DNA from: Acanthochlamys bracteata
Taxonomy: Eukaryota; Streptophyta; Magnoliopsida; Pandanales; Velloziaceae
Direction of reading: 5' to 3'
DNA length: 64,000 nt
Assembly: GCA_019914995.1 (NCBI GenBank)
Contig: CM034144.1
Coordinates: 4,743,489-4,807,488 of the forward strand
Shown: piece by piece, positions 8,831 to 64,000 of the stretch
Layout: the number at the start of each line of letters is the position of its first letter
Position numbering within the stretch: position 1 is the stretch's first letter
Translations under genes and position numbers: made by a program
Notes under the pieces: generated by a model
What the model saw: the letters and a program-made list of their open reading frames with translations, nothing else
Databases searched by the model: none
Told to the model about the DNA's origin: nothing

Positions 8831-9890
8831 TATAAATCTTTTAGGGCGGGAGCTGTTTTAGAGCTTTTAGTAAAAAATATTTAACATTAAATGTGTGTTT
8901 GGTAAAACTATGTTTTGTCACCGCTTTTTTACTCAAAAGTGAAAAGTAGCATAATGATACTTTTTCAATCAAGCAGCACAGAGTTTTTTAATTTTTCGAA
9001 ATGAAATAATCGTTTTGCTATGTTAAGTTCTACAAATTAAGTTGGTACATATTAGGTTACTGTTTGGCTGTGCTCGGACTTTAGGGAAAAGCAGTTGAAA
9101 ACTCATTTTGGCCGTGTTTGGAGGTGCTAAAATTTTTATATTTTTGAAATAAAGTTGCTTTAGAGTGCTGTATCCGGCTATAAAACTTTTGTTGTAAAAG
9201 CAGCTTTATGCTGAAAAATATTTGGATAAATTTTTATTGTATCGTACTTTTGAATGCTGAAAGCTGAATGAAGTATTTGACTAAGCTTAAACTTATTTCT
9301 ATATGAGATATATAATGACCGAAATGTCTCTAAATATATGATAATTGATATATTATGAAATTTTTAATTATTTTTTATATATTATTTATTTTTTTAAAAT
9401 TTAATAATTTTATTATATTATTAATATCAATCAATAATTAAATTGAATAATATTAATTATATAATAATTATTATAATATTAAATTTGAAAAATATATTTA
9501 ATAATTATTAAAAAAATTTTATATTATTTTGTAAATTTAGTATTATTATGATAAATTAATAAAAATTTTGATATGTATTTAAATCTGTATAAATTATAGA
9601 TTTATTTTTATAGTATAAAAATATTAAATAAATATTAAACAATTAATAAAGTCAATTGTTACAAACTTTAATATAAATATTATACGGTCATACATATTAT
9701 AATGAAATAAAATACAATCACAAGTTCAAACAGAAACACAATATTCATAAATGACTATATATTTTACTTGTAATTGCATCACGACATGCATCCCATCTAT
9801 CATTACGATCGGATTCATCCTCGGGTGGAACGTTTGATGTACTAGAAGATGCTTCAAATACTGACGGTAGATAAGTTTCACGCTCAGCAT

Positions 9891-11048
9891 CTATAAATCT
9901 TCATCTGCTCCTTTAATCCTGATATAATTATGTATCGCCATTATCGCAATAATAATATTACGTTGTACCTCTATTGAGTATGGCGGCATATCTATTAAAA
10001 TTGCAAAGTGCGCCTTCCATACGCCAAAAGTGCGTTCAATTATAGTCCTGCATGAAGAATGTAGAAAGTTAAACTTTTCTTTTCTCCCTCTAGGCGCCCG
10101 CATTTGTGGTGTATTGGCACGACGAAAGTCCTCCAGATGATATCTTACGTCCCGGCCTTTATAAGGACCCATATATCCATAGGTATGTTTATATCCTTTA
10201 TCCACTAAATAATATTTATCTTCGTGAGGATGAGGAAATCTCAATTCAGGCCTACGTAATGCTTCGTTCAGTATGCGTGAATCGTGAGCTGACCCTTCCC
10301 ATCCGGTCCATGCAAATGTAAAACACATATTCAAATCACATACCACCAATATATTTTGAGTAGCATACCCTTTACGTCCAATGTAAGGTGTTATATCTTC
10401 TGGCCGTATAGTTACTTTGATATGTGTCCCATCGATAGCTCCAATACAATCCTGTATTCAAAATTTAATATTAAAATAAAAAATTTAACTTAGCTATTAT
10501 AACAATCTAATTGCCGAAATTTGATTTGATCACTTACTTTAAACCATGGAAGATAACGTGCATTCTGTGGTTTATGAAATGCTTCTCCCTCGTTATATCT
10601 ATCGTGAGGCTTTATAACATTTGCAGCCAATCTCAGCACAGCCTGAAGCACTCTATGAAAATGCCGATGAATCGTCTCACCCGAATGACTAAAACTTTCC
10701 TGATTTACTCTATTTCCTAGACCATGTGCACACGTTCCGAAAAAGATAGCAACTTCTTTATGAACAGACATTCCACGTGCCGCAATCTAAGTTGTACAAC
10801 ATTGTCAACTCATCACATAGTTGTAAAAAAACAGGTACCTTCAATCGAAAATTTTGATAGCAACGAACTTCGTTTCTTTGCAGTATCTCATTTATGAAAA
10901 CGTTACCCGTGCATATAGATGTACGACACAGACGTTTACATAAATGCCGATTGTAGTACTAAATTGCTGCATAATTTGCTTGTTCACATAAATCTGTCCA
11001 TTCTTCTTCACTATCATTTTCCTTACTATTACTAGCCCACGAATCCAT
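9891..11048 (-). pseudogene. PIF/Harbinger DDE transposase, frameshifted N-terminus
   Basis: Nuclease of the DDE_Tnp_4/HARBI1 type, which cuts and rejoins transposon ends. The C-terminal exon 10451-9891 is open and has the expected order: DCIGAIDGTHIKV (first D), AHDSRILNEALRR (second D), and IIERTFGVWKAHF (the E). A GT-AG intron (10537-10452) joins it in frame to 10771-10538, which carries the helix-turn-helix-like GETIHRHFHRVLQAVLRLA segment. Further upstream the frame opened by ATG at 11048 (MDSWASNSKEND, RCYQNFRLKVPVFLQLCDEL) contains an in-frame TAG and is in a different frame from the rest, with a shift near 10780-10800. The catalytic core is therefore intact but the N-terminus is broken. 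It is paired with ORF1 at 11549-12556, as in complete Harbinger elements. Confidence 0.85.
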
Positions 11049-11548
11049 TTAACTGCAAATATAAAAATTTAATTTTAAATGACAATATTAAATAAAAACA
11101 TACGTATAAACTCACAATTCTCAAAAACAATAATATTATAATTGATATCAAAATTTTTTCTAATAATATAATTTTGAACAAATTATATACTATCACTATG
11201 ATACAATATACTAACATAATACTATCAAAACAATATTTTAAACGTTCAACTAAGTCACAGTAATAACATAACAACATCATATGTCCACCACAAAATTATT
11301 CCAAAAATATTTATAATATTATTATTTAACAAACACCATATTAACACGATAATAATATTTCAATAATGTTCACAAATAATACTACATAATAACCATAACA
11401 ACATACAATAACTACCACCAAGATCATATAATAATATTATTTTACAACCATAACAACATTCCAATAATGTTTACAACATACTAACTTTATAATACTAATT
11501 GCCCACTAATATTCGACAATGTTCAAATTACAACATACAATAACTAGT
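11049..11548. other. AT-rich spacer between transposase and ORF1
   Basis: A/T-rich spacer between the two Harbinger genes, with many ATAATATTA and CATAACAACAT-like motifs but no coding sequence I can support. It is probably intergenic DNA of the transposon. Confidence 0.5.
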
Positions 11549-12556
11549 TTAAGATTTTTCCGGTCCAAAATAGTTAAAGTGAAAATTCAGCCAACTATAG
11601 TGAGCTGCAGCATTAAGATAACTTATGAAGACCTCACGATTTTCTTTCTTAGTCAAAACACATGCTCCATAATGGGCTAGGGGGCTATCGGCTTCTATCT
11701 CCGGAATAGTGTCCAATATTGCCAAACATTGACGGATGGTTGGTATCGATAACGTTATTGCATGTCTTTGACGCATTATCTCTGTCATGTCACCGATATG
11801 CTCCTTTCCAGATGATCCGGAACTCTTTCGCTTTCTACCACTACTTCCTGATCTTAAAGGATTTTGAGATATAGAAAAAGACTGTGAAAAGAGATCATTA
11901 TCAGTAATTATAGGAGAGGAAACCTGAAATGCAGGTTGAGGTTCTTCATTGGCTCGAACTTCGTCGCTATCTCCGCTGCCTTCCAAATCTTATGGGTTTG
12001 AAGGTGCAGTCTCCTGTTGAACTTGTGATGGTGCCCAAGCCCGCGAACCATTGGCAACAAGATCATCAAATAACATCGGATACCGTTCGCGGTATATAGA
12101 TAAATCTTTTCCCTTTAATTTTTTAAACTTAGGGTATGCCTAAAGAAAAAAAGAGTTCATTAATTAAAAAAATTAGTTTAATAATAATAACACATTTTTT
12201 ACGATTAGATAAAAAACCTTAATTTTTTCTTCTCACCAATCCTCATCTGCAGCGATTGTATTGCAGTATAATCCCATCCCAAATCAGACTCTCCACGAAC
12301 CAACGATTTATAATTATTGTAATCACTCTTCATACCATCCCAATGATTTTTTTAATTGTTTTCGGTCAACCTCCTGGCCATAAAATTTTTCAAATGATTT
12401 TTTGATATTTGCCCAGCCTTGCACATTAAAATAGGTCCATGACCTATTCCCCTTAGATATCTCTTGTTCACAATATTCAACAAACATAAAGTGGATAGCA
12501 TCTGTCCACCTAATCGGATTCACCTTTCTTGCTCGACGTGATTTTGAGGATTCCAT
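11549..12556 (-). pseudogene. Harbinger ORF1, Myb/SANT-like protein, disrupted
   Basis: The DNA-binding partner protein that PIF/Harbinger transposases need. The first exon starts with ATG at 12556; residues of the Myb/SANT-like (Myb_DNA-bind_3) domain are clear: RWTDAIHFMFVEYCEQEI, TYFNVQGWANIKKSFE and GQEVDRKQLK. An extra A then shifts the frame near 12345. The expected HWDGMKSDY and LVRGESDLGWDYTAI blocks continue in the next frame, and a second shift plus a TGA follows near 12240. After an intron (about 12217-12140) the second exon reads LSIYRERYPMLFDDLVANG, meets a TAA near 11992, then stays open to 11549 with a serine-rich linker and the family tail. At least three lesions make it non-functional as read. 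Confidence 0.8.
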
Positions 12557-12577
12557 CTAAACATATAAAAATAAATC

Positions 12578-12790
12578 CCTTAAACATCATCATAGGGCAG
12601 CAAGAAAGCATCTCATTTGAGCATTGTATAAAGCAAACATCCCTCAAACATTATCTTAGGGCAGCAAGAAAGCATCTCATTTGAGCATTGTATAAAGCAA
12701 ACATCCCTCAAACATCATCATAGGGCAGCAAGAAAGCATCTCATTTGAGCATTGTATAAAGCAAACATCCATCAAACATCATTATAGGGC
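12578..12790. repeat. 64-bp tandem repeat, about 3.3 copies
   Basis: The word AGGGCAGCAAG recurs at 12594, 12658, 12722 and 12786, exactly 64 bp apart, within units containing GCATCTCATTTGAGCATTG. Copies are nearly identical, so this is the youngest-looking part of the array. It lies directly upstream of the ORF1 start. Confidence 0.9.
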
Positions 12791-13215
12791 AGCAAGGATA
12801 GCATAGGTAACACTACCACAAACCCTCAAAATTTATCATAGGGCAGCAAGAAAGCATATAGACAATACCACCAGGCAAAAATCCCTCAAAAAACATCATA
12901 TGACAGTAAGGATAGCATAGGTAATACTACCACAAACCCTTAAAATTCATTATAGGGCAGCAAGGAAGCATATAGACAGCACCAACAGGCAAAATCCCTC
13001 AAAAAACAACATATGGCAGTAAGGATAGCATAGGTAACACTACCACAAACCCTCGAAATTCATCATAGGGCAGTAAGGAAGCATATAGGCAGCACCAACA
13101 GGCAAAATCTCTCAAAAAATATCATATGGCAACAAGGATAGCATATGTAACACTACCACAAACCCTCAAAATTCATCATAGGGCAGCAAGGAAGCATATA
13201 GGCAGCACCAACAAG
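12790..13215. repeat. About 115-120-bp tandem repeat block
   Basis: Units alternate a CATAGGGCAGCAAGGAAGCATATAG half with a GGATAGCATAGGTAACACTACC half. They recur at roughly 12840, 12955, 13068 and 13189. The unit appears to be two diverged ~60-bp monomers, a dimeric higher-order repeat built on the same word as the neighbouring blocks. Confidence 0.8.
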
Positions 13216-13745
13216 CAAAAAACATCCTCAAAATTCATCATAGGGCAGCAAGACTGAGCCTGGGCAGAATCACCACAACAACTCAAAAAAAAGGCCAGCA
13301 ATGATAGCATGACATTATAGGGCAAAAACATCCTCAAAATTCATCATAGGGCAGCAAGACTGAGCCTGGGCAGCACTGCCACAACAACTCAAAAAATAGG
13401 CTAGCAAGGATAGCATGACATTATAGGGCAAAAACACCCTCAAAATTCATCATAGAGCAGCAAGACTAAGCCTAGGCAGCAACACCACAACAACTCAAAA
13501 ACTAGGCCAGCAATGATAGCATGACATTATAGGACAAAAATACCCTCAAAATTCATCATAGGGCAGCAAGACTGAGTTTCGGCAGCACCACCACAACAAC
13601 TCAAAAAACAGGCCAGCAAGGATAGCATGACATTATAGGGCAAAAACACCCTCAAAATTCATCATAGGGCAGCAAGACTGAGCCTGAGCAGCACCACCAC
13701 AACAACTCAAAAAATAGGCCAGCAAGGATAGCATCTCAGTTGAGA
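13215..13745. repeat. About 107-bp tandem repeat block, five copies
   Basis: Units contain GGGCAGCAAGACTGAGCCTG and then CACCACAACAACTCAAAAAA and a GGATAGCATGACATTATAGG half. Starts lie near 13236, 13344, 13451, 13559 and 13664. It is a second dimeric version derived from the same monomer. Confidence 0.85.
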
Positions 13746-16620
13746 GTTGTATAAGGCAAAAATCCCTTCAAAAGTAAGTGTAGCATCCATTCCACTATCA
13801 TGATATTATTAACTATCAAGTTAGCCAAACATCTCATTCAAAGTAACAATTCTTGCCATGCCATCCAAAAGGGGCTGCAAGATTATAAGGCAACAAAATA
13901 TCTAATTTTAGTAATGTATAAGACAACAAACCCTCAGAAAATCATCATAGGAGAAGCAAGGTTAGGCAACAATCCTCAAAAATCTAGATAGGGCCAGGTA
14001 GGGCAAGCACGGGCAAATATACATCAAGATTCATTACTTTCCAGCAAGGATAGCCAACGAATCCTCAAAATTCATCATAGGGCCAGCAAGGGTGTTTATA
14101 GACAACACCACTTCAAAAAGCACAGCCAAACCAGTAAGGATAGCCAACAATCCCCCAAAAATCATCAACATGCCAGCAAGGACAAGCATAGACAAATATA
14201 CCTCAAAAATCATTAATTGCCAGTAAGAATAACTAGCAATCCCTCAAAATTCATCATTGGGCTAGCTAGGGTAAGTATAGACAGCAACCATACATATTTG
14301 GTTAAGATTAAGTGTAGCATCTATTTTATTATCATGTTATCAATAACCATCAAGCTAGTCAAACATCTCATTCAAAGTAAAGATCCCTGCCACGCCGTCC
14401 AAAAGGGGCTGCAAGGTAATAAGGTAACCAAACATCTCATTTGAGTATTTTATAAGACAACAAATCCTTAGAAATCATCATAGGGGCTGTAAGGTTAGGC
14501 AACAATCCCTCAAAAATCCAGATAGGGCAGCTATACATCATTATTCATTACTTGCCAATAAAGGATAGCCAATAAATCCTCAAAAATTATCAACAGGCCA
14601 GCAAGAACAAGTATAGGCAACATATCCCAAAAAATATTTATTTGCTAGTAAAGATAACCGACAATCCCTCAATAATCATCATAGGGCTAGCAAGGGTGTT
14701 TATAGACAACACCACTTCAAAAACTAAGCCAAACCAGTAAGGATAACCAAAAAATCCTAAAAAATCATCAACAGGCCAGCAAGGACAAATATATGCAACA
14801 TATCTCAAAAAATATTTATTTGCTAGTAAAGATAACCGACAATCCCTCAAATTCATCATAGAGCCAGCAAGTGTTTTTATATGCAACACCACTTCAAAAA
14901 CTAAGCCAAACCAGCAAGAATAGCCAACAATCCCTCAAACATCATCAACAGGCCAGCAAGAACAAGTATAGGCAAATATACCTCAAAAATCATTAATTGC
15001 CAGTAAGAATAACTAACAATCCCTCAAAATTCATCATTGGGCCAGCTAGGGTAAGTATAGGCAGCAACCATACATATTTGGTTAAGATTAAGTGTAGCAT
15101 CTATTTTATTATCATGTTATCAATAACCATCAAGGTAGCCAAACATCTCATTCAAAGTAAAAATTCCTGCCATGCCGTCCAAGATGGGCTGCAAGGTAAT
15201 AAGGTAACCAAACATCTCATTTGAGTATTTTATAAGACAACAAACCCTCAGAAATCATCATAGGGGCTGTAAGGTTAGGCAGCAATCCCTCAAAAATCCA
15301 GATAGGGCAGCTATACATCATTATTCATTACTTGCCAATAAAGGATAGCCAATAAATCCTCAAAAATTATCAACAGGCCAGCAAGAACAAGTATAGGCAA
15401 CATATCCCAAAAAATATTTATTTGCTAGTAAAGATAACCGACAATCCCTCAATAATCATCATAGGGCTAGCAAGGGTGTTTATAGACAACACCACTTCAA
15501 AAACTAAGCCAAACCAGTAAGGATAGCCAAAAATCCTAAAAAATCATCAACAGGCCAGCAAGGACAAATATATGCAACATATCTCAAAAAATATTTATTT
15601 GCTAGTAAAGATAACCGACAATCCCTCAAATTCATCATAGAGCCAACAAGTGTTTTTATATGCAACACCACTTCAAAAACTAAGCCAAACCAGCAAAAAT
15701 AGTCAACAATCCCTCAAACATCATCAATAGGCCAGCAAGAACAAGTATAGGCAAATATACTTCAAAAATCATTAATTGCCAGTAAGAATAACTAACAATC
15801 CCTCAAAATTCATCATTGGGCCAGCTAGGGTAAGTATAGGCAGCAACCATACATATTTGGTTAAGATTAAGTGTAGCATCTATTTTATTATCATGTTATC
15901 AATAACCATCAAGGTAGCCAAACATCTCATTCAAAGTAAAAATTCCTGCCATGCCGTCCAAGATGGGCTGCAAGGTAATAAGGTAACCAAACATCTCATT
16001 TGAGTATTTTATAAGACAACAAACCCTCAGAAATCATCATAGGGGCTGTAATGTTAGACAACAATCCCTCAAAAATCCAGATAAGGCAGCTATACATCAT
16101 TATTCATTACTTGCCAACAAAGGATAGCCAATAAATCCTCAAAAATCATCAACAGGCCAGCAAGGACAAGTATAGGTAACATATCCCAAAAAATATTTAT
16201 TTACTAGTGTAGATAACCGACAATCCCTCAATAATAATCATAGGGCCAAAAATGGTGTTTATAGCCAACACCACTTCAAAAACTAAGCCAAACCAGCAAG
16301 GATAGCTAACAATCCGTCAAACATCATCAACAGGCCAGCAAGGACAAGCATAGGTAAATATACCTCAAAAATCATTAATTGTCAGTAAGAATAACCAACA
16401 ATCCCTCAAAATTAATTATTGGGCCAGTTAGGGTAAGGATAGACAGCAACCATACATATTTGGTTAAGATAAGTGTAGCATCTATTTTATTATCATGTTA
16501 TCAATAACCATCAAAATAGCCAAACATCTCATTTAAAGTAACGATCCCTGCCATGCCGTCCAAAAGGGGCTGCAAGACTGAGCATAGGCAACCAAGCATC
16601 TCATTTTAGTAATGTTCAAA
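13746..16620. repeat. 780-bp higher-order tandem repeat
   Basis: A composite unit of many ~50-60-bp monomers (ATCCCTCAAAAATCATCA..GGCCAGCAAGGA) is itself repeated. Identical landmarks such as TTGCCAGTAAGAATAACTA occur at about 14217, 14997 and 15776, so the period is 779-780 bp. A shortened fourth copy starts near 16380. The second and third copies are almost identical, which points to recent unequal exchange. A 75-codon open frame repeats in each unit, but it is a by-product of the repeat and not a gene. Confidence 0.9.
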
Positions 16621-17460
16621 AGCAGTACACAAAAATAGAAATGGTAATGCAAAACTAATGAAATGCATTTAACCGTAATGGAGAGAAGCTCGAATGAATT
16701 TTATATGAAATATTGCATATACAATAATACTTTTGCACAGAGTAGTCTAAACATGTCAAGTAAAGAAAATATATGAATTAAAAACACAATAAGAATTAAA
16801 TCGATAATAATTTTAACTTCACTGTTAAACCGAAGGAGGAACAACAACACTTATAAGCACTCACCATATGCAAAAACTATATGAACTGCATGGACAAGCA
16901 CTCATCATCTGCAAGCACACCTTAAGAAAAAAATAACAAGCACCGCAAATCATTACGGAAAACAACTCACCATTGGCAGTGTAAATCGAGAACAAAAAAG
17001 CAAGCATACATGTCGAAATAAATAGAGAACGAACACACATACCATACATACTCAAAAAACATTATACCGTTAATTGTTAAAACCGTTATCGTCAACAGAA
17101 AAAAAGAAGAGAAAACAAACTAAAAAAAAATAATTGCGGCTAAAGATCTTACCAGATCGAAGGAAGAACGGCAGCGAAAGCTCTAGTAAAGAAAATCCAA
17201 AGCAAAAGCAGCATCAAGATCGGCCGGACGAAGAGGTCAACATAAACGAGACCGACAACAGTGTCGAACGAAAAAAAATGCTTGGCTTTTTAGCGGTATG
17301 AGACGAAGAAAATAAGAGTCATCAGTTTGTCTGCCGGAGACGAAGATATCATCCTCTTCGGAGATAAAAAACAACCGGAAAAGCTAGGGTTTGAAGAAGA
17401 AAGGAGCGGCGCATACGGAGGAAACGATCGAAAAAGAAATGAGAAGATTATGATAAATGA
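16621..17460 (-). promoter_or_regulatory. Probable promoter/5' leader region of Harbinger ORF1
   Basis: Non-repetitive DNA between the array and the right terminus. On the minus strand it is rich in CCGGCCG and CTTCTTC motifs and contains AAACCCTAGCTTTTCC near 17385, a leader-like motif. The related sequence at 5860-6000 sits in the same relative place inside the non-autonomous element at 4473-6285. No start site can be fixed. Confidence 0.35.
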
Positions 17461-18202
17461 GATACGGTAAAATAATTTATATAACGTGATAATTTTACAA
17501 ACTTATGATGGATATTATCGTCTTTTCGCAGGGGTTTGAGAAAAGCCGCCGTGGTGCTTTTCTTTGAAAGCATCTCTATGATGTTTTTTAAAAAGCGACT
17601 GTAAAAGCATTTTAAAATAGCTTAAAACTGCAATACCCAAACGGTATTTTTACTGTGCTGTGAAGCTTAAAGCACCAATAAAGCACGGCCAAACAGGGCT
17701 CGGTAATACTGGCTTTTAGCTGCTGTGAGCAGCTTTCAACAGTGAAAAAACAAAAGCATCACTTCGGTGCTTTTAGACAAAAACCGCGCAGGGCTTTACT
17801 CCCTGCCAGTGTTTAATGACTATTCTGCCTACGGTAAGTTGGAGAAACTACAACTGTATATATACATTTCTACCAAACTGATTTGCTCTCATTTTTTTTT
17901 CCTAATTTTTCTTCTCCTTCTCTCACGATCGGCAACGATCCGGACCTCCAGCGATTTGCAATCTTCACAGGTTTCTCTCTTATCTGCGCCTAAATTCCTT
18001 CATTCTCCTTTCCTTCTTCCCATTTTTCACCTTCGCCACCCTAATTTCTGCTCAAAACTGCCATCCACGAGCGGTTAGGAACCCTAATCGAGCTCGCGGG
18101 CTCCGTCTACTTGCTGATTTTTTCTCCGCATTTATTTCCCTTTATTTCTTCAAACTCTCGCTTTCCTTTTTGTCTTTCATTCATTTCTTCCGTAGAGGAA
18201 AC

Positions 18203-18718
18203 ATGGAGCAAGTCGTCGTCGATAATTCGACTTCAACGCGCTCTCGTCTAGTAATATTGGCCGCACACCTCTCCGATGCAGGCGATCTCTCTTCTTCTTC
18301 TTCTTCTTCTCTAATGCCGTCACCTGTCTCTGTTTAAGAGCTACCTCCTCCGCTTAGCAATCGCAACTATTTACTAATGGCCGTTGATAACCGCATCCAC
18401 ACCGGTAAGGTCACTGAAATCCCAATTTCTGAAAATGAAACCGTTAAATTCACTGATTTCAAGCAGGTTCGATTGCTTCCTTTGATCAGTATTTTTGTGA
18501 ATTTTGTGATTTAGTTTAGCTAGTTGATCAATATTTTGGTTAATTTTGGGAAAAGATTACTACCGGCAGTATGGTAAAGGGGCTTACGCTGTTTGACCTT
18601 AGATACCTTAACATTGCTACGGTGAAATCGTCAATCTATTATGTTGGTGGAGATGAAGGGATCATAAGGTATAGAGGGTACCCGATGGAAGAGTTAGCTA
18701 AGGAATAGCAACTTTCTT
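18203..18718 (+). pseudogene. CSY: Citrate synthase (peroxisomal type) 5' fragment
   Basis: Citrate synthase condenses acetyl-CoA and oxaloacetate; the peroxisomal plant form works in fatty-acid breakdown. ATG at 18203 opens a frame with RSRLVILAAHLS, the family's RARLAVLxxHL N-terminus, then a serine run. TAA interrupts at 18336. The same frame resumes with HTGKVTEIPISENETVKFTD and ends at a GT donor (18467). A second exon from 18556 continues in phase: [20 protein letters not shown], then [20 protein letters not shown], closely matching the conserved DPGYLNTAPVRSS and GDEGILRYRGYPIEE region. It then hits TAG at 18716. The remaining two-thirds of the enzyme, including the catalytic His and Asp region, is absent. 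Upstream 17870-18200 looks like the original pyrimidine-rich leader. Confidence 0.85.
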
Positions 18719-19473
18719 AAAGTAGCTTAATTGTTAAGTGAGTTTTTATCTTTATTTCGTGCTTGTTGGTTGCTCAAATTCAAAGTTTGATTCTCGTTGA
18801 TTGTGAGTTAGTAATAATTGATTGATTTTGTTGTGTTTGGTTATTTTGCAGTGTACTGGAACTTACCTTCTAAAGCCAGTTGGAGGGTTCGGAGTTCGCA
18901 AATTTTCAGCACTATGTGGTTCTGCAGAAAGTTATTTTCTTAAGATAATTAATCCTTTATCCAATAAGTCCTATTGCTTCAACGCTAATAGGTTCCTGGT
19001 TTGCATTTGAGTTCGTGTCTGTTGTCCTCATGCATTATCCCAAGGAATAGTAATGATCTGTTTCAAAATCTCAACCTCTTTTACTGATAAGAATGCTTTT
19101 AAGAACAGTATATGATGTTTCATCTGAAGTATCTTGAATCTGGATAGTAAAATCTATGTGTCAGTGTAAGGCAATGGAATATCATCAGTATAGGTGATTG
19201 TGTAATGTTAATATGTCTGTTGCATTTGGAAAATTTTCTTGAGTTTGTTAAGTTAGTTTTTCTTGTTAAACGTGCTAGAATATGCAAGGATTGATTAGTC
19301 AAGTAAAAATTAGTGAATAAGTGCTGATGCAGTATATGTTCTAAAACTTGATTTATTTTTTATGGGAGTCATGCAAAATTGAACCCTTTAGTTTCATGCA
19401 AAATGTGTTAACTATAGTAGCCCATAAATATAAATGGCTTATATGTATATGTTACATGGTCCTTCTTAAGTAG

Positions 19474-19560
19474 ATGACATCTATACTTTGGAGCGCTTTT
19501 GCTGGAGCTGCTAACAGGAAAGAAGGCTTTCAATAGGGATCACTATCTTTACCCACTGAG
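19474..19560 (+). pseudogene. Receptor-like kinase fragment (subdomains IX-X)
   Basis: After a one-base deletion at about 19486 the sequence reads DDIY then FGALLLELLTGKKAFNRD. This matches the DVYSFGVLLLELLTGKKA block found in plant receptor-like kinases. The fragment ends at AG followed by GTTTGT, a plausible splice donor. No other kinase motifs lie nearby, although 19690-19750 (MFLDEMVDPLV) could be a further scrap of the same gene. It lies in the same putative captured segment as the citrate synthase piece. Confidence 0.65.
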
Positions 19561-20543
19561 GTTTGTGATGCATGCATTTATTTGATTTCTAATTTCAGTC
19601 ACTTTTAATTTCTTTCAATGCAAGTGTCAATAAGAGAGGGGGGTAGTGTCTGGTGTTCTGAGCAAGTTCACGCCTACATGACTTAATGTTTTTGGATGAG
19701 ATGGTTGATCCACTGGTTAGAGGGAGCATACCTTTCAAGGATCCGTCCTATGTTGCATGAAAAATAAAAATTTTTTTGTCATTTGAGAGTGGTGTTGAAA
19801 TGCTCTTTATATTGAGAATGGGATTAGAACTTAATTTTTGGACTAGTTAATGTATTATGTAATTGTATTTGAACTAGCTAATGTATTTTATAATTGTTGC
19901 TGTTAGTATTGTATTTTGTAATATGTTCGTACTACATTACAATTTAAAATTGTTATTATGTTAAAAAGTTTTAGAAAGTTCAAATATATGTTGAAATAGT
20001 TCAATCATGTTGTTGTGTTCTTAAGTCCATAGGCTTGATTCAGTATGGATAAAGTTGATCACGTTTTTTAAGTGCATTTATAATTTATAATTATGATTAT
20101 ATTAAATTTAATAATTTATAAATATTGTTAAAAATTTATTAATTTTATATAGATAATTTATATGAAATATTATTCAAAATAATAATTAGTTTATAAAAAT
20201 AATATAATTACTAATAAATTTATAAATATTAATCAAGAGAATATCTATAAATTTATTATGTTATAAAAAATAGTAAATTTTAAGAATTAAAGAATTTAAA
20301 GTTTTATAATATATTAAGTATATATGATTAAAGATAGTTCGGTTATTATATACGTTTTTTAAAAATAAGTATAAATTTAGCGAAACATTTCATTCAATAA
20401 AAAGCATGATACAGTAACAATTTATCCAAACACTTTTCAGCATAAAGCTGCTTTTAGAGCAAAATTTCACAGCCGCTTATAGTACTCTAAAGTAGCTTTA
20501 CTTCAAAAGCACAAAAGTTTCAGCACGTTCAAACGGGGCCTAC

Positions 20544-21639
20544 TTCTATTCCAACTTTATCTCACCATTGCGCTCAGAAATCCTTCCGTCTCACAATCGT
20601 GTTTTGCTAATTTTAAATCTACTTTGTTGATCTACTTCGCTTGTGCTATAGAGATTTGATTTTTTGCTCAAACTATCTGATTTATTCTCGATCTACTCTA
20701 CCGCGTTGTGTCGATTAACTTCTTCTAGATCCTACAAAATCTTTTCACTTTCGTTACTGCTTTGACTAACATATGGAATCAGAGCCTATGCTTTTTATCT
20801 CTGCTTAGTCTTACAATAACTATATGAGTATATTATAGTATTTAATTCATATTATATTCATATATTATATTCTTTCTTTGAAATTTTTATACCGATTCTA
20901 TTAATTTCACATACTTTTAAATTTTTGTATATTCTATAATATTATGAGTACAAATTATCCATCTTATCGTATAATGCGGTATAATATTATTTTGTTTAGA
21001 CATCAACAATTCATGTTTATTTAGTTAAATATTCTAACCAAACAATTTCATTATACTTTGAAAGATGGTTTATGATTTATTTATGTTATCTCTAAAATTT
21101 GTGCATTTTGTGAAGCTTATGTTTCACATTTATTTTTGAGATAATTTTTGGCTTAGCAAAATTTTATTAAGTATTTATGATATGCGTATATATGATATGT
21201 TAAATCAAAATTTTGATATCAAGTGATTAATGTACATATAAATAATTAAAGAATAGCCACAACATCTTTAATTGTGTTGATCTATGCATTAAGTATTTTT
21301 CACTTATATAATCACATATATTTATATGACATCAAATTATAATTAAATATGAAAATATGATAGCTTTGCCCATGAGGAGTTATTATATATTCATATTTAA
21401 TTAAGATGGAATAGAAAATATTTATTATTATTTTGATTTGCCCACAGGAATTGAGAAGTAATAATAAATTTTTAGTTTAATCATAAAAATTAATTGTATG
21501 AATCATTATGTGTTAGAATCTTTGCCCACAAGTAGATTTTAATGACGTGGATTCATATATATTATAATATGTCTTACATTAGTAAGTTTATCTATTAGAT
21601 GGTTTATGCATCATATATTGTTGAGTAAACGTGTTAAAT
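20544..21639 (+). other. Possible 5' LTR end, primer site and leader of copia element 1
   Basis: The sequence CTTTGACTAACA at 20759-20770 is followed by TATGGAATCAGAGCC, which resembles the initiator-tRNA-Met primer site (TGGTATCAGAGC) of plant copia elements. The ~45 bp before it resemble 27725-27769 at the far end of the element. Upstream similarity fades, so the 5' LTR is truncated or strongly diverged. From 20800 to 21640 is an A/T-rich leader with recurring TTTGCCCAC motifs and no gene. Confidence 0.4.
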
Positions 21640-22125
21640 TTACTTATTTGTAATTGATCAAACTTCGATATTTTCTAATGATAAAATTCTCTGCTTAAGT
21701 GGTGACAACTATAAAGGGTGGAAGGAGAGTGTTCTACTTCATTTGGGATGCTTAGACCTTAAATATGTTCTTCGTAAGGATGAGCCACCTGTACCTAGAA
21801 GTACTAGTACTCCTACTGAGATAGCATTATACGAACAGTGGGAGAACTCACCGGTTAGTATGATGTATATCAAATCTCACATTATGACTAGTATTCCTGA
21901 ATCGATATCTGATTGTACTAATGTCAAAGACTTAATGAAGGCTATTGATGAGCAATTTGAGTTTTCGGATAAAGCATTGGCTAGCACCCTAATGAGCAAG
22001 TTGACATTCATGAAGCTCACTGGCCTTAAGGGTGTTCGCGAGCACATTGTGCAAATGAGAGACATCACTGCTCAATTGAGGGCCCTTAAGATGGAGATTT
22101 CTAATGATTTTTTAGTGCATTTTTA
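21640..22125 (+). pseudogene. Copia element 1 gag
   Basis: Open frame resembling the copia gag of plants: NDKILCLSGDNYKGWKESV at the start, the YEQWENSPVSMMYI and AIDEQFEFSDKALASTLMSK helices, and KGVREHIVQMRDITAQLR. It stops at TAA (22124-22126). Recognisable gag continues downstream in shifted frames. A broken zinc knuckle at about 22365-22410 has one Cys replaced by Arg and a frameshift inside GHIRKDCPK. Confidence 0.8.
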
Positions 22126-22439
22126 AACTATCTTCCATCTCAGTATAATGCTTTTAAAATTTTCTATAATACACATAAAGATAAATGGTCATTTAGTGAA
22201 TTTTTGATCATGTGTGTTCAAGAGAAGAAAGATTGGTTTAGAAAATGAATCAAAGTGCACATCTAGTAATAGGAGACAAAAGTAAACCTTTAATAAAAAA
22301 GGGAATGACAAATCGAATGCAATAGGCAAGTCAAATGATTCTTCTCATGTTGTTGGAAAATAATCCAGGTGTTTTTTTCGTAAAAAGGACACATAAGGAA
22401 GGATTGCCCTAAAAGAAAGATTTGATTTGAAAAGAAAAA

Positions 22440-22660
22440 TAATCTCATATCTTATGTGTGTTATGAATCTAATATGGTTTATTTTTCTCATAACACTTGG
22501 TGGATTGATTCTACTTCTACAATTCATGTTTCTAATACCATGCATGATTTTCTAAACCAAAGAAAACCGACAAACAGTGAATGTAGCATCTATTCTAGAA
22601 ACCGGATGACTTCATATGTGGAAGCCGTAGGAACTTGTACAATAGTTAAGAATTAATTTT
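22440..22660 (+). pseudogene. Copia element 1 protease region
   Basis: The frame reads WWIDSTSTIHVSNTMHDF, matching the copia aspartic protease region in which W.(I/L)DSGA(S/T)xH is the active-site motif. Here the glycine-alanine part has changed (DSTSTIH), and the frame stops at 22654. The pol region resumes only after the two foldback insertions. Confidence 0.6.
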
Positions 22661-22791
22661 ATTTTGAATTTAGAACGAACCTTTTATATTCCAAGTTTTT
22701 CTATAAATGTAATTTTTAGTACAATACTTGTACCTTTGGGCTTTTCCTTCACCTTTTATGAAACATATTTTAATTTATTAAAAGATTCAAT

Positions 22792-23213
22792 ATATATATA
22801 TATATATATATGGGATAGGATATAGGCACTCCATATGTTATATACACTCCATTGGTTTCTCCGACCATATTTGGCCGGAGAGATCTCCAAACACGATTTT
22901 TACCATTGGATAAGTAGAACTATGAGTTTGAAACATGGTTAACAAATTTCAGTTCAGTCGGACCATGAATCGACCTTCTTCCGGCTACTTGATCAAGATG
23001 ACTCAAAAACTAAAAATATATACATTGTCAACTTTTACTATTTGAGTAATCTTAATCAAATTGCCGGATGAAAGTCGAATCGTGATCCGATTGAAGTGAA
23101 ATTTTGTAAGCATGTTTACAACTCAATGTTCTACTTATCCAACGATGAAGATCGGATTTGGAGATCTCTCCGGCCAAATATGGCCGGAAAAACCGATGGA
23201 GTGCCTATATATA
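22792..23213. mobile_element. Foldback element 1 in a (TA)n tract
   Basis: A long imperfect inverted repeat. ATAGGCACTCC at 22822-22832 pairs with GGAGTGCCTAT at 23198-23208, and pairing extends inward through CCATATTTGGCCGGAGAGATCTCC and its complement. The single-strand loop near the centre is short. The element is bounded by TA repeats on both sides. Insertion in TA microsatellites is known for rice Micron-type elements; the relation here is only by analogy. It interrupts the copia 1 polyprotein. Confidence 0.75.
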
Positions 23214-23664
23214 TATATGAGATAGGGGCACTCAAGCTGTTACGTACACTCCAGCGTACTGGACGATCGTCTGTGGCCGTAAAGACCTCCAAATCTAATC
23301 TCTAACATTAAGTATCAAAAATTATGAGTCGGTAACATGTTGACAAATTTTCATCTCAATCGGATTACGAATCGACTTCCATCCGGTCACTTGATGAAGA
23401 CGACTAAAAAAGAACAAATATATATTGTGTCAACTTTTACTAATTATGTAATAATGATCAAGTGACCGGACAGAAATCGATTTGTAGTTCGTTTGAGGTA
23501 AAATTTTGCCAACATATTACCGACTCATAGTTCTTCATACCCAATAGTAGATATTAGATTTGAAGGTTTCCATGGCCACAAATAGCTGCGGAGTGCGCTA
23601 GAGTGTGCATAAGAACTAGAGTGCCTCTATCCCTCCACATATATATATATATATATATATATAG
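23214..23664. mobile_element. Foldback element 2, related to element 1
   Basis: Directly adjacent to the first and also enclosed by (TA)n. GATAGGGGCACTC at the left pairs with GAGTGCCTCTATC at the right. Inner arms (TGGCCGTAAAGACCTCCAAATCTAAT) pair with their complement near 23530-23580, with mismatches. It is similar in plan to its neighbour, but the two differ enough to be separate insertions of related family members. Confidence 0.7.
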
Positions 23665-23682
23665 GATAGTGTTCCTTATAGT

Positions 23683-24248
23683 TTGATGGCTTCACACAAT
23701 AATGCTGTTATTAAGCGTTGTGTTATAAATGGGAAATTTTCAATATTATGTCATCGGAGGTTAGGACATATCTCCATTGAGAGAATCAAAAAGTTAGTAA
23801 ACGATGGAGTGCTTGAAACTCTTGACTTTACGGATTTTGATATTTGTGTAGACTTCATTAACGGAAAGTAGACTAACAAGAAATAACAAAGGTGCTAAGA
23901 AGAGTTTTGAAATTTTAAAAATCATGCACACAAATTTTTACTGTCCTGATATGTGCTCTAGTGGTCAGAAGTATTTCATTATTTTCATTGATGATTATTC
24001 ATGATTTATGTATCTCTACTTGCTTTATAATAAGAACAAAGCGTTGGATGCTTTTAAATTTTATAAGGAAGAAGTAGAGAAACAATGTGAAAAATAAATT
24101 AAAATCGTGAGATCTGATAGAGATGGTGAATTTATAGTAAATATATAGGTACTGGACAAGCATTAGGTCCATTTGCTGAATTTCTTCAAAAGCAAAGTAT
24201 TGTGGTTCAATAAACATTGCCTAGCTTACCATCACAGAACGGTGTGGC
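23683..24248 (+). pseudogene. Copia element 1 GAG-pre-integrase and integrase part
   Basis: The translation contains LCHRRLGHISIERIKKLV, the GAG-pre-integrase H..LGH motif, then CVDFINGK, where the second zinc-binding Cys has become Phe. It continues in frame-shifted pieces of the integrase core (FIIFIDDYS, DAFKFYKEEVEKQC, IKIVRSDRDGEF). Several stops are present. The core is cut by a MITE at 24249 just after NGVA and resumes at 24785 as ERKNQAL. Confidence 0.8.
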
Positions 24249-24776
24249 CAAGATTATCAAAATCCGATTTAAATCTTAAAGTCCTACAATCTTACGATTT
24301 TACTTCACCCATACGATACAGATCTCAAGTAAAATTTTTTTTGAGTAAAATCCCACCTAGATTTCGATTTAAATTTTAAAATTGGTAAGATCCCGATCTT
24401 TTTACAATCTTATACAATTTTACTTTTAAAAATTTTTTTGTAATTAACTATATTTCAAAGAGTTTTTTATAAATTTTAGAGAGTTTTCTATAAAATTTTG
24501 GAGGATTTCTAAAAAAGTATGATTTCGAGAAATTTTCTGTAAAATATAGAGAAATTTTTTATAAAATTTAAAAGAATTTTAAATTTATTTGAAATGTACC
24601 TAAATTATTTTTAAAAAAATATTAGAAAAACTTTTATAAAAGATCCTTAATGGTATTAAAAAAAATTTATATAATTTATCAGTATGGAAAATCTTACAAT
24701 TTATTTTAAGATTTCGATTTTACAATCATACTCATGCGAAACGATCTGATATAGCATCCCGATTTTGACAACCTTG
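24249..24776. mobile_element. hAT-like MITE inside the copia 1 integrase
   Basis: Ends CAAGATTATCAAAATCC and, inverted, CAAGGTTGTCAAAATCGGG. The flanking 8 bp are GGTGTGGC (24241-24248) and GATGTAGT (24777-24784), which differ only by three transitions. The host reading frame (NGVAERKNQA) is restored if one copy is removed. The interior is A/T-rich and non-coding. Plant MITEs beginning CAAGGTTGTCAAAAT are common; the 8-bp duplication supports the hAT superfamily. Confidence 0.75.
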
Positions 24777-24784
24777 GATGTAGT

Positions 24785-25441
24785 AGAAAGAAAAAATCAA
24801 GCATTAATAGACATGGTGAAGAGTATGCTTAGCAAATCAAATCTTCCTTCTTAATTATGAAAACAATCTTTTAAAATAGCAGTGTATATATTAAACATAG
24901 TTCCAACCAAGGCAGTTTCCAAAACGCCTTTTGAATTATGAAAAAGTTGGAACCAAGTTTAAGACATGTGCGCATTTGGAGTTGCCCAGCTGAAGTTAGA
25001 CTTTATAATCCGCAAGAAAAGAAGTTGGATCTAAGGACTATCAGTTGATATTTTATTGAATACGCCGAAAAATCAAAGGGTTATAAGTTTTATTGTCCAT
25101 ACCATACCAGTAGAAATATTGAATCAAGAAATGTTAAATTTCTTGAGAATGATTTAGTTAGTGGGAGTGATCAATTCAAAAATTTAATTTTTGAGAAAGA
25201 TCATGTTTCAAATACAACTTCCGAATCAAGTGTAGGATTGGTTATTTATTCAAAAAGAATGGATATTGAAGAGCCAATCACTCAAATTCCGCATCTTACT
25301 TAAAATACTTTAGAAAATCGTGATGGACAACCTGCACAAAAGGGACATTCAGTTGTGTAACAACCTTCAAAAGATATTGTTCATATAACATTAAGAAGAT
25401 CTACTAGAGTTAGAAAATCACCAATTTCTTTTAATTATGTT
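24785..25441 (+). pseudogene. Copia element 1 integrase C-terminal part, decayed
   Basis: Resumes with ERKNQALIDMVKSML and continues in mixed frames through the region between integrase and reverse transcriptase of Ty1/copia elements. Stops and frameshifts are frequent, and no open frame survives. Confidence 0.7.
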
Positions 25442-26560
25442 GTGTATCTACATGAATCTGACTACGACATTAGTACCGAGAATGATCCTGAGACGTTTTC
25501 ACAAGCAATGGAAAGTGATAAATCTAAATTGTGGTATGATGTTATGAAAGATGAGATAGATTCTATGGCAAATAATCAAATATGGGATCTTGTTGAGTTG
25601 CCTAATGGGGTGAAGACTATTGATTGTAAATGGATATTTAAAACTGAGAAAGATTCATTAGATAATATTGAGAGATATAAGGCCAGACTTATTGCCAAAG
25701 GATTCACGCAGAAGGAAAGAATTGATTATCAAGAGACATTCTCTCCTGTTTCTGAAAAGGATTCCTTCCGTATCATTATGGCATTAGTTGCCCATTTTGA
25801 CTTAAATTTACATCAAATGGATGTGAAAACGACATTCCTCAATGGAGATTTAGAAGAAAGAGGTTTATATGCAACGACCTAAAGAATTTGTTCCCAATGA
25901 AGGTGAACACCTGGTTTGCAAACTACGCAAATCCATTTATGGATTAAAGCAAGGCTCCCGTCAGTGGTATTTAAAATTTCATAATGTTATTTCTTCATTT
26001 GGTTTTGTTGAAAATGTTATAGACCAATTTATGTATCACAAAGTTAGTAGGAGTAAGATCATTTTTTTGGTTTTATATATTGATGATATTTTGCTTGCAA
26101 CCAATAATATGGGATTATTGTATGAGGTAAAACAATTTCTCGAAATATTTTGATATGGGTAAGGCATGTTATATTATTGGCATAAAGATACATAAAGATA
26201 GATCTCAAGGTATATTGGGATTATCTCAAGAAGCCTATATCAATAAAGTTGTTGATAGATTTCGGATGAAAAAATATTCAACTAGTGTTGCACCGATAAT
26301 AAAAGATGATAAGTTCAATTTGAATCAATATCCTAAAAATGAACTTGAAAGGGAACAAATGAAAAACATTCCATATGCTTCAGCTATTGCAAGCCTGATG
26401 TATGTTCAAATCTGTACTAGACCTGACATTATATTTGAAGTTGGAATGTCACGAAGATATCAAAATAATACAGAGTTAGATCATTGGAAGGTTGCAAAGA
26501 AAGTCATGAGGTACCTTCAGGGAATTAAAAATTACATGCTTATATATAAATGATCCAACA
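25442..26560 (+). pseudogene. Copia element 1 reverse transcriptase (RVT_2)
   Basis: Three adjacent open segments, 25442-25882, 25869-26153 and 26155-26553, carry the Ty1/copia reverse transcriptase in order: LVELPNGVKTIDCKWIFKTE, YKARLIAKGFTQ, MDVKTTFLNGDLEE, then a frameshift at about 25865, KLRKSIYGLKQGSRQWY, and the catalytic LYIDDIL at about 26075. A further break at 26153 leads into YASAIASLMYVQICTRPDI. The YxDD box is intact but three frame interruptions and a TGA at 26551 disable it. Confidence 0.88.
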
Positions 26561-63002: not shown

Positions 63003-64000
63003 TTTTCAGAAATATTCAATTCATTATTCTCTTTAGCTTGTCCATTGCATGTATCTTTTCTTTCCAATTTTTTTGTATTTTGGAAATATTTATTTAATTA
63101 ACTTGCTTAGTATATATGCGCATTGGATTAACTTTAAAGCTTGCTTCCTTAGGATCTTTGCTCCTTGCTTCGTAACTTAACTTATATTAATCCCTTTTTC
63201 AGAAATATTCAATTCATTACTTTCTTTAGCTTGTCCATTGCATGTCTTTTCTTTCCAATTTTTTTTTGTATTTTGAAAATATTTATTGAAAAAACTTGCT
63301 TAGTATATATGTATATGCATTGGATTAACTTTAAAGCTTGCTTCCTTGGGATCTTTGCTCTTTGTTTCTTAACTTAACTTATATTAATCCCTTTTTTAGA
63401 AATATTCAATTCATTACTCTCTTTAGCTTGTCAATTGCATGTTTCTTTTTTTTCCCCTTTTTTATGGTATTTTGGAAATCTTTATTGAAAACACTTGCTT
63501 AGTATATATATATATCTGCATTGGATTAACTTTAAAGCTTGCTTCCTTGGGATCTTTACTCTTTGCTTCTTAACTTAACTTATATTAATCCCTTTTTCAG
63601 AAATATTCAATTCATTACTCTCTTTAGCTTGTCCATTGCATGTTTCTGTTTTTTTTCCCTTTTTTTTGTATTTTGAAAATCTTTATTGAAAAAACTTGCT
63701 TAGTATATATATATATATGCATTGGATTAACTTTAAAGCTTGCTTCCTTAGGATCTTTGCTCTTTGCTTCTTAACTTAACTTATATTAATCCCTTTTTCA
63801 GAAATATTCAATTCATTACTCTCTTGACATTGTCCATTGCATGTCTTTTCTTTCCATTTTTTTTTTTTTACTTTGGAAATCTTTATTGAAAAAACTTGCT
63901 TAGTATATATATATATATGCATTGGATTAACTTTAAAGCTTGGGATCTTTGCTCTTTGCTTCTTAACTTAACTTATATTAATCCCTTATGCATTAATTCA
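63003..64000. repeat. About 200-bp tandem repeat, five copies, running off the window
   Basis: AGAAATATTCAATTCATTA recurs at 63008, 63201, 63398, 63599 and 63800, spacings 193, 197, 201 and 201 bp. Each unit also carries AGCTTGTCCATTGCATGT, a poly-T run, AAAACTTGCTTAGTATATAT and GGATTAACTTTAAAGCTTGC. Length differences come mostly from the poly-T and (TA)n runs. The array may continue past 64000. No gene inside. Confidence 0.92.

Follow-up and report, generated by a model that had tools for sequence, protein, structure and literature searches.

A tandem array in the putative ORF1 leader intron of a PIF/Harbinger transposon family of Acanthochlamys bracteata

Does a 4-kb block of tandem repeats beside a transposon gene belong to the transposon, how did it come by its layout, and does the element make use of it? 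The question is raised by a stretch of 64,000 bp of the Acanthochlamys bracteata genome (GenBank assembly GCA_019914995.1, contig CM034144.1, positions 4,743,489 to 4,807,488; C19:4743489-4807488 in our numbering, and termed the window here), in which such an array lies upstream of ORF1 of a PIF/Harbinger element. The original prediction, made from the sequence alone, held that the array is part of the element and had grown stepwise away from ORF1, and that it could seed genomic satellites or bind the ORF1 protein. We consider it likely that the array is an old intronic minisatellite of one PIF/Harbinger family, resized by slippage, probably in gap repair, spliced out and carried as a passenger.

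The array and its transposon

The array was recovered with Tandem Repeats Finder (TRF) and by sequence inspection between 12575 and about 16620 of the window, with the length and place predicted. The TRF rows (12575-15842) comprise a 64-bp unit (3.6 copies, 94% match), a 113-bp unit (4.3 copies), a 106-bp unit (4.9 copies) and an 89/177-bp unit; a unit of about 780 bp is visible by sequence inspection up to about 16620. All blocks belong to a single family of 40-64 bp monomers with a common 32-bp core, built into units of 64, 114, 106 and 780 bp. In a monomer model based on the core, the window array consists of 48 monomers in uniform orientation, spaced at 41-64 bp except for linkers of 224-232 bp and double steps of 88-112 bp. 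The basic monomer does not lengthen along the array; what varies is the number of monomers per higher-order unit. The zones are as follows (window coordinates, evidence in parentheses).

12575..12804, minus strand: 64-bp zone, 3.6 copies (TRF, monomer model)
12761..13252, minus strand: zone of about 113 bp, pairs of 54- and 60-bp monomers (TRF, monomer model)
13218..13734, minus strand: zone of about 106 bp, pairs of 50- and 56-bp monomers (TRF, monomer model)
13735..16620, minus strand: higher-order zone of about 780 bp, with 224-bp linker, 112-bp step and 89-bp monomer pairs (TRF, sequence, monomer model, unit alignment)
14561-16124, minus strand: two near-identical 780-bp copies (unit alignment)

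The 780-bp units form a higher-order tandem repeat. Units 2 and 3 are identical at 768 of 779 aligned bases (98.6%), as predicted, compared with a match of 64% in the period-89 rows and 84-85% in the period-177 rows; the unit preceding the second is identical to it at 602 of 766 positions. Such near-identity could mislead an assembler, but 11 aligned bases and 6 gap positions set the two copies apart, and the number of 780-bp units varies among loci, which makes an assembly artefact scarcely credible.

The array is located within an element of 8.6 kb (about 9110-17699), the genes of which are on the minus strand in the order promoter/5' exon, array, ORF1, transposase. Its identity as PIF/Harbinger was borne out by both genes and by the termini. 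The transposase piece at 9891-10457 matches DDE_Tnp_4 (PF13359, E 5.4e-23), as expected of a PIF/Harbinger transposase; the Myb/SANT domain expected of the second gene was recovered in the sister copy C3b, whose first ORF1 exon matches Myb_DNA-bind_3 (PF12776, E 2.2e-22). The ORF1 of the window is 94% identical in DNA to that of C3b and is broken, with three TGA and two TAA codons in the stretch matching the first exon of C3b (row C19:4755706). The termini were located by alignment of the window against 10 other loci; the terminal inverted repeat (TIR) of the family is GGCCCTGTTTGG, of the PIF/Harbinger kind. A homologous left start was found where expected in eight of the 10 loci, and for C7 in a second element further on; C3a is without it. 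Target duplications of 3 bp were seen in all six copies displayed from the 10 (four TTA/TAA, one TAT, one ATA); the window copy has the TIRs, and a matching target duplication was not found there. The parts of the element outside the array are listed below.

9110..9300, no strand assigned: left TIR/subterminal region, GGCCGTGTTTGG... (comparison with other loci)
9891..10457, minus strand: transposase exon piece, DDE_Tnp_4 (open reading frame, PF13359 match)
10530..11048, minus strand: approximate transposase 5' exon, immediately following a TTTGCAG acceptor (sequence; alignable in 10 of 11 copies)
11548..12556, minus strand: ORF1, two exons with an intron at about 12139-12216, broken here (ORF1 searches; Myb/SANT in C3b)
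12557..17152, minus strand: putative leader intron in the 5' untranslated region, 4596 bp (donor CTG/GTAAG at 17152; TAG acceptor at 12559-12557, adjoining the ATG)
16640..17146, minus strand: non-repetitive 5' part of the putative intron, type I module (alignment)
17153..17500, minus strand: 5' exon and putative promoter region, type I module, with a box-like word TATATAAA near 17480 (alignment)
17560..17699, no strand assigned: right TIR/subterminal region, CCAAACAGGGC (comparison with other loci)

Members of this one family share the array and genes but carry either of two alternative 5' modules, types I and II, which looks like an exchange of promoters; the type II module of about 1.1 kb gave 48 matches (40 of 44 candidates scored).

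The 780-bp unit, the 64/113-bp part and the linker served as queries against the genome (195.5 Mb, 557 contigs); 40 of 80, 40 of 74 and 40 of 184 candidates were scored, respectively. The first of these searches gave 313 matches, about 150 of them listed, and clusters were grouped by hand from the listed rows. A search with ORF1 DNA, in which the best 40 of 131 candidates were scored, gave 41 rows at 40 loci, and the array is present at all 40: at 37 with array matches within about 0.55 kb, at two (L029, L030) as seen in fetched stretches, and at the remaining one (C17) next to the start of a split ORF1, which abuts the array. At least 46 array clusters were placed (45 plus one), and all 46 lie within this transposon, 42 of them with an ORF1 match within about 0.55 kb. 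The other four, considered as candidates for a free satellite, turned out to be copies of the transposon missing the ORF1 start, with the array between the left module and a type II right module. A scan with the word pattern gave 205 matches, and the 100 listed are all inside known clusters; a reversed control pattern gave none.

The array belongs to this PIF/Harbinger family and is not a chance insertion. Copies lacking the array, or arrays mainly without transposon flanks, would have spoken for such an insertion; among the loci scored and the clusters placed, neither was seen. The further suggestion that the array seeds genomic satellites found no such backing: among the candidates scored and listed, none of the 46 placed clusters is free of the source element. 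Tetris in Drosophila is a published case of a transposon whose repeats spread into free genomic arrays (PMC4079207), and the satellite VaccSat7 has been traced back to Harbingers of Vaccinium, to their terminal part (PMC7290377), but with placed clusters and listed pattern matches confined to the transposon, this fate is extremely unlikely for the present array.

Leader intron, layout and resizing

A donor and an acceptor word flank the array. The ORF1 ATG (12556) is immediately 3' of TTTATTTTTATATGTTTAG, and the acceptor ...ATATGTTTAG abuts the ORF1 start in all 11 copies compared, the start codon being ATG in 10 and ATA in C3a. The CTG/GTAAG donor is intact in five of six type I copies and altered in C7b, and each of six type II copies has a GGTA donor-like word in its own 5' module. 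Judged by these words, the array would fill 88% of a leader intron of about 4.6 kb between the promoter exon and the ORF1 start codon. The sense strand of the window array holds 166 ATGs, so that an array retained in the mRNA would hamper ORF1 translation.

The order of zones is broadly similar across 11 copies: spacings of 60-64 bp, then 48/41, 60/54 and 50/56 or 50/50, followed by the 232-bp linker, 89s, and 224/112/89/48/41 at the far end; zone counts vary, and some zones are absent from some copies. The 60-64 bp spacing is at the ORF1 end in nine of the 11; C19b starts with 50 and C14b with 40, and in more diverged copies the units nearest ORF1 are of 204 bp (L029) or 104-426 bp (L030), with no adjacent 64-bp zone. 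Monomer matches range from 17 to 48 per copy in 10 copies; C7 was set aside because its stretch includes a second element. For most of the 33 linker units from 11 loci, the closest sequence comes from another element and from the corresponding array position, the clear exceptions being the two recent window units (0 differences in the linker) and some C7 units. Since linkers mostly group by position across elements, the zone layout is inherited and older than these copies. By these alignments, the 'gradient' of zones is an old architecture, in which only the 780-bp duplication of the window is recent and local. The predicted growth of the unit with distance from ORF1 holds for the succession of zones in the window; it does not hold for the monomer or for the family at large (C19b, C14b, L029, L030), and the stepwise path within one transposon that was read from it gives way to an inherited layout.

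We infer splicing, gap repair as the engine of resizing, and neutrality. The array would grow and shrink via slippage or unequal exchange, most likely during sister-chromatid repair of the gap left by an excised copy; repair that stopped early inside the array would leave copies without an ORF1 start; and if spliced out, the array would be irrelevant to the protein in its size and be carried as a passenger. In three of the four clusters without an ORF1 start, the array runs directly into the left module, with joints at about 10055, 11967 and 11788 that have 2, 2 and 4 shared bases as judged by eye. These joints could stem from abortive gap repair, which Grzebelus et al. 2007 (PMC2213677) put forward for the 60-bp repeats of Harbingers in Medicago. 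If splicing hides the cost to the protein, a leader intron would be a safe place for DNA transposons to grow repeats, and array copy-number differences among copies would be a record of gap repair.

Between copies, the linker has a mean pairwise p-distance of 0.066, against 0.067-0.081 in ORF1, transposase and the spacer between them and 0.079 in the 5' intron part; the coding parts are no better preserved than the array, as expected for decaying copies.

Several points weigh against a spliced passenger. Rates differ elsewhere in the element (p-distance 0.107 at the left end and, from five copies, 0.138 in the 5' exon/promoter), and weak past selection would be masked because the compared copies are mostly broken. 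Both the splicing and the promoter are putative, read from sequence signals. The joints are few, and 2-4 shared bases are barely above chance and are weak evidence alone. YAG acceptor words are about three times rarer on the sense than on the antisense strand, but dinucleotide shuffles account for this scarcity, which therefore lends the intron no support: over the whole array 63 were seen and 69.8 expected (28 of 200 dinucleotide shuffles as low). Larger Harbinger elements moved less in yeast (PMC10288884), and despite this reported size cost every placed copy of the present family retains 1-4 kb of repeats, so that the array is not obviously free.

Selection against sense-strand acceptor words was rejected as an explanation, as only the 229 bp of the 64-bp zone are low (0 seen, 2.7 expected; 1 of 200 shuffles). 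In the repeats tested in other lineages, acceptor words are not depleted.

Tests for function

The monomer core does not behave as a conserved functional site: when the last unit was compared across 10 copies, diversity was higher inside the core (0.141) than outside it (0.095; P 0.015). Such a site would give the reverse; misplacement among monomers may have raised the core figure. RNA folding of one 780-bp unit was no better than that of its 20 shuffles (z +1.15). The core has no match at the left terminus (152 of 300 shuffles equally good). In the right subterminal region there is one local match, reached by 1 of 300 shuffles, which depends on two bases missing in three other type I copies (C3a, C1 and C14a); a fourth, C7b, differs there too. 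An ORF1 binding site common to both termini was rejected on these grounds. Taken as sequence tests, core conservation, RNA folding and terminal sites give no support for a function of the array.

These results bear on two readings in which the array works for the element. It was predicted that the array could be bound by the ORF1 protein. It would then be a cluster of sites for this Myb/SANT protein, serving self-regulation or keeping the protein near the element. The uniform monomer orientation, the single common core, the Myb/SANT domain itself and the right-end match speak for this; but the lack of a match at the left end, the restriction of the right-end match to some copies, the diversity of the core, and the absence of the array from 24 sister-family leaders (described below) leave it very unlikely.

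The array might otherwise be a cis-regulatory element of the leader intron (intron-mediated enhancement or an enhancer), kept because ORF1 expression scales with its copy number. Its presence in every placed copy despite the size cost (PMC10288884) would fit, as would the unrelated repeats in the leaders of some sister families. The word TTNGATYTG, which raises expression in a copy-number-dependent manner in Arabidopsis (PMC6760150), occurs once at the exon-intron joint of the type I donor region (window 17146-17162), ending exactly at the putative donor, in four of five type I copies tested; but neither strand of the window array contains it, nor do the 5' modules of the five type II copies tested. 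As the core is not conserved and the array is kept in copies without an ORF1 start, we hold a regulatory role to be improbable.

Sister families and published systems

A search with the ORF1 protein (150 of 300 candidates scored) finds other Harbinger lineages, many at about 45-62% identity, and 2.7-4 kb before ORF1 were taken from 28 further loci. Four of these are in the array family (monomer matches: L029, 39; L030, 15; L031, 13; L043, 15); in the other 24 leaders the array is absent, two having a single weak monomer match. TAG stands directly before the start codon in 22 of these 24 (not in L048 and L051). An origin of the monomer from the intron 3' end (TTTGAG or TTGAG word in most) was rejected, as none of 15 sister leaders beat chance and the best, L047, was equalled by 72 of 500 shuffles. 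Comparison with the sister families makes an effect of the array on expression testable.

Repeats of other kinds are present in some sister leaders. L036, L041 and L045 carry telomere-like AAACCTAAAACC arrays of 69-71 bp units at about -100 to -635 of ORF1 (coordinates 128-633 in L036); when one of them was used as query, matches came from arrays at contig ends (at about 68%) and from several other ORF1 leaders. L032 and L033 have a 186-bp unit about twice, and L049, L054 and L056 a 154-bp unit about 2.5 times. Of the 24 loci with the 154-bp unit, 19 have it upstream of an ORF1 match (by hand, within about 2 kb); it often occurs as one or a partial unit, and is a duplication more than an array. 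A TRF score of at least 300 was reached by eight of the 24 other-family leaders and by none of 26 control 3-kb pieces, where the control pieces omit short stretch ends, including window 63003-63987, whose array would give 1 of 27. Because the leaders come from few lineages and the control has these gaps, the higher frequency of repeats in leaders than elsewhere is only a lead. The array at 63003-63987, almost at the window end, is a 201-bp tandem repeat of five copies (90% match, TRF score 1513).

A broader reading would make the leader intron of plant PIF/Harbinger elements a recurrent nursery of arrays: at least two lineages of one genome would each have acquired, independently, an unrelated true array in front of the ORF1 start codon (the 40-64 bp minisatellite and AAACCTAAAACC), and others carry the 154- and 186-bp duplications there, because a long leader intron would serve the element, through expression timing, spacing or as a safe target for gap repair. 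We offer this tentatively, as a possibility on the unlikely side.

Repeats inside Harbingers have been published before, from Medicago (PMC2213677) and Vaccinium (PMC7290377). MtPH-A6-4 of Medicago truncatula has 2-35 imperfect 60-bp tandem repeats that are element-bound genome-wide, and, as here, shows copy-number change and deletion derivatives, there attributed to abortive gap repair (PMC2213677). Unlike MtPH-A6-4, the present repeats occupy a putative leader intron upstream of ORF1 in every placed copy, share a single orientation and form higher-order units. The triplicated AAACNNCTTATT of the 60-bp Medicago unit has no exact match in the array or the monomer core; its one-mismatch form AAACATCTCATT occurs eight times (13827-16533), in linkers and outside the 32-bp core, and one-mismatch matches in the window array are within chance (21 vs 16.2 expected). 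Harbinger-type elements of Vaccinium likewise have internal tandem units and mostly TAA/TTA target duplications; there, the units number 3-5, lie close to the 3' terminus of non-autonomous elements and were studied as a satellite (PMC7290377), whereas here an internal leader array is found in a two-gene element and no free satellite was found. Gmr9/GmOgre of soybean has interleaved minisatellites in a non-coding transposon part, with monomers up to 149 per locus; 9% of the minisatellite copies are with other retrotransposons and 1% with uncharacterized repeats (PMC3305785). Tetris/TIR-220 of Drosophila virilis is also a DNA transposon with internal tandem repeats, but is Foldback-like, has the repeats in its TIRs and gave rise to satellite arrays (PMC4079207). 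In the parts available of a mostly open-access literature (including PMC2836001, PMC10288884, PMC6327408, PMC4055405 and PMC6760150), we found no array described from the leader intron of ORF1, a silence that is weak evidence of novelty.

Two observations concern the surroundings of the element in the window. A citrate-synthase-like piece at 18556-18702 (PF00285, E 6.3e-05; 22.6 bits, under the curated cut-off of 27) has the right TIR on one side and, on the other, a left-type Harbinger terminus in inverted orientation (arms 9110-9256 and 20395-20540), and 17700-20545 may be a gene fragment that was captured, or else a nested element. At 21638-25882, next to the element, are pieces of a copia-type retrotransposon (gag PF14223, RVT_2).
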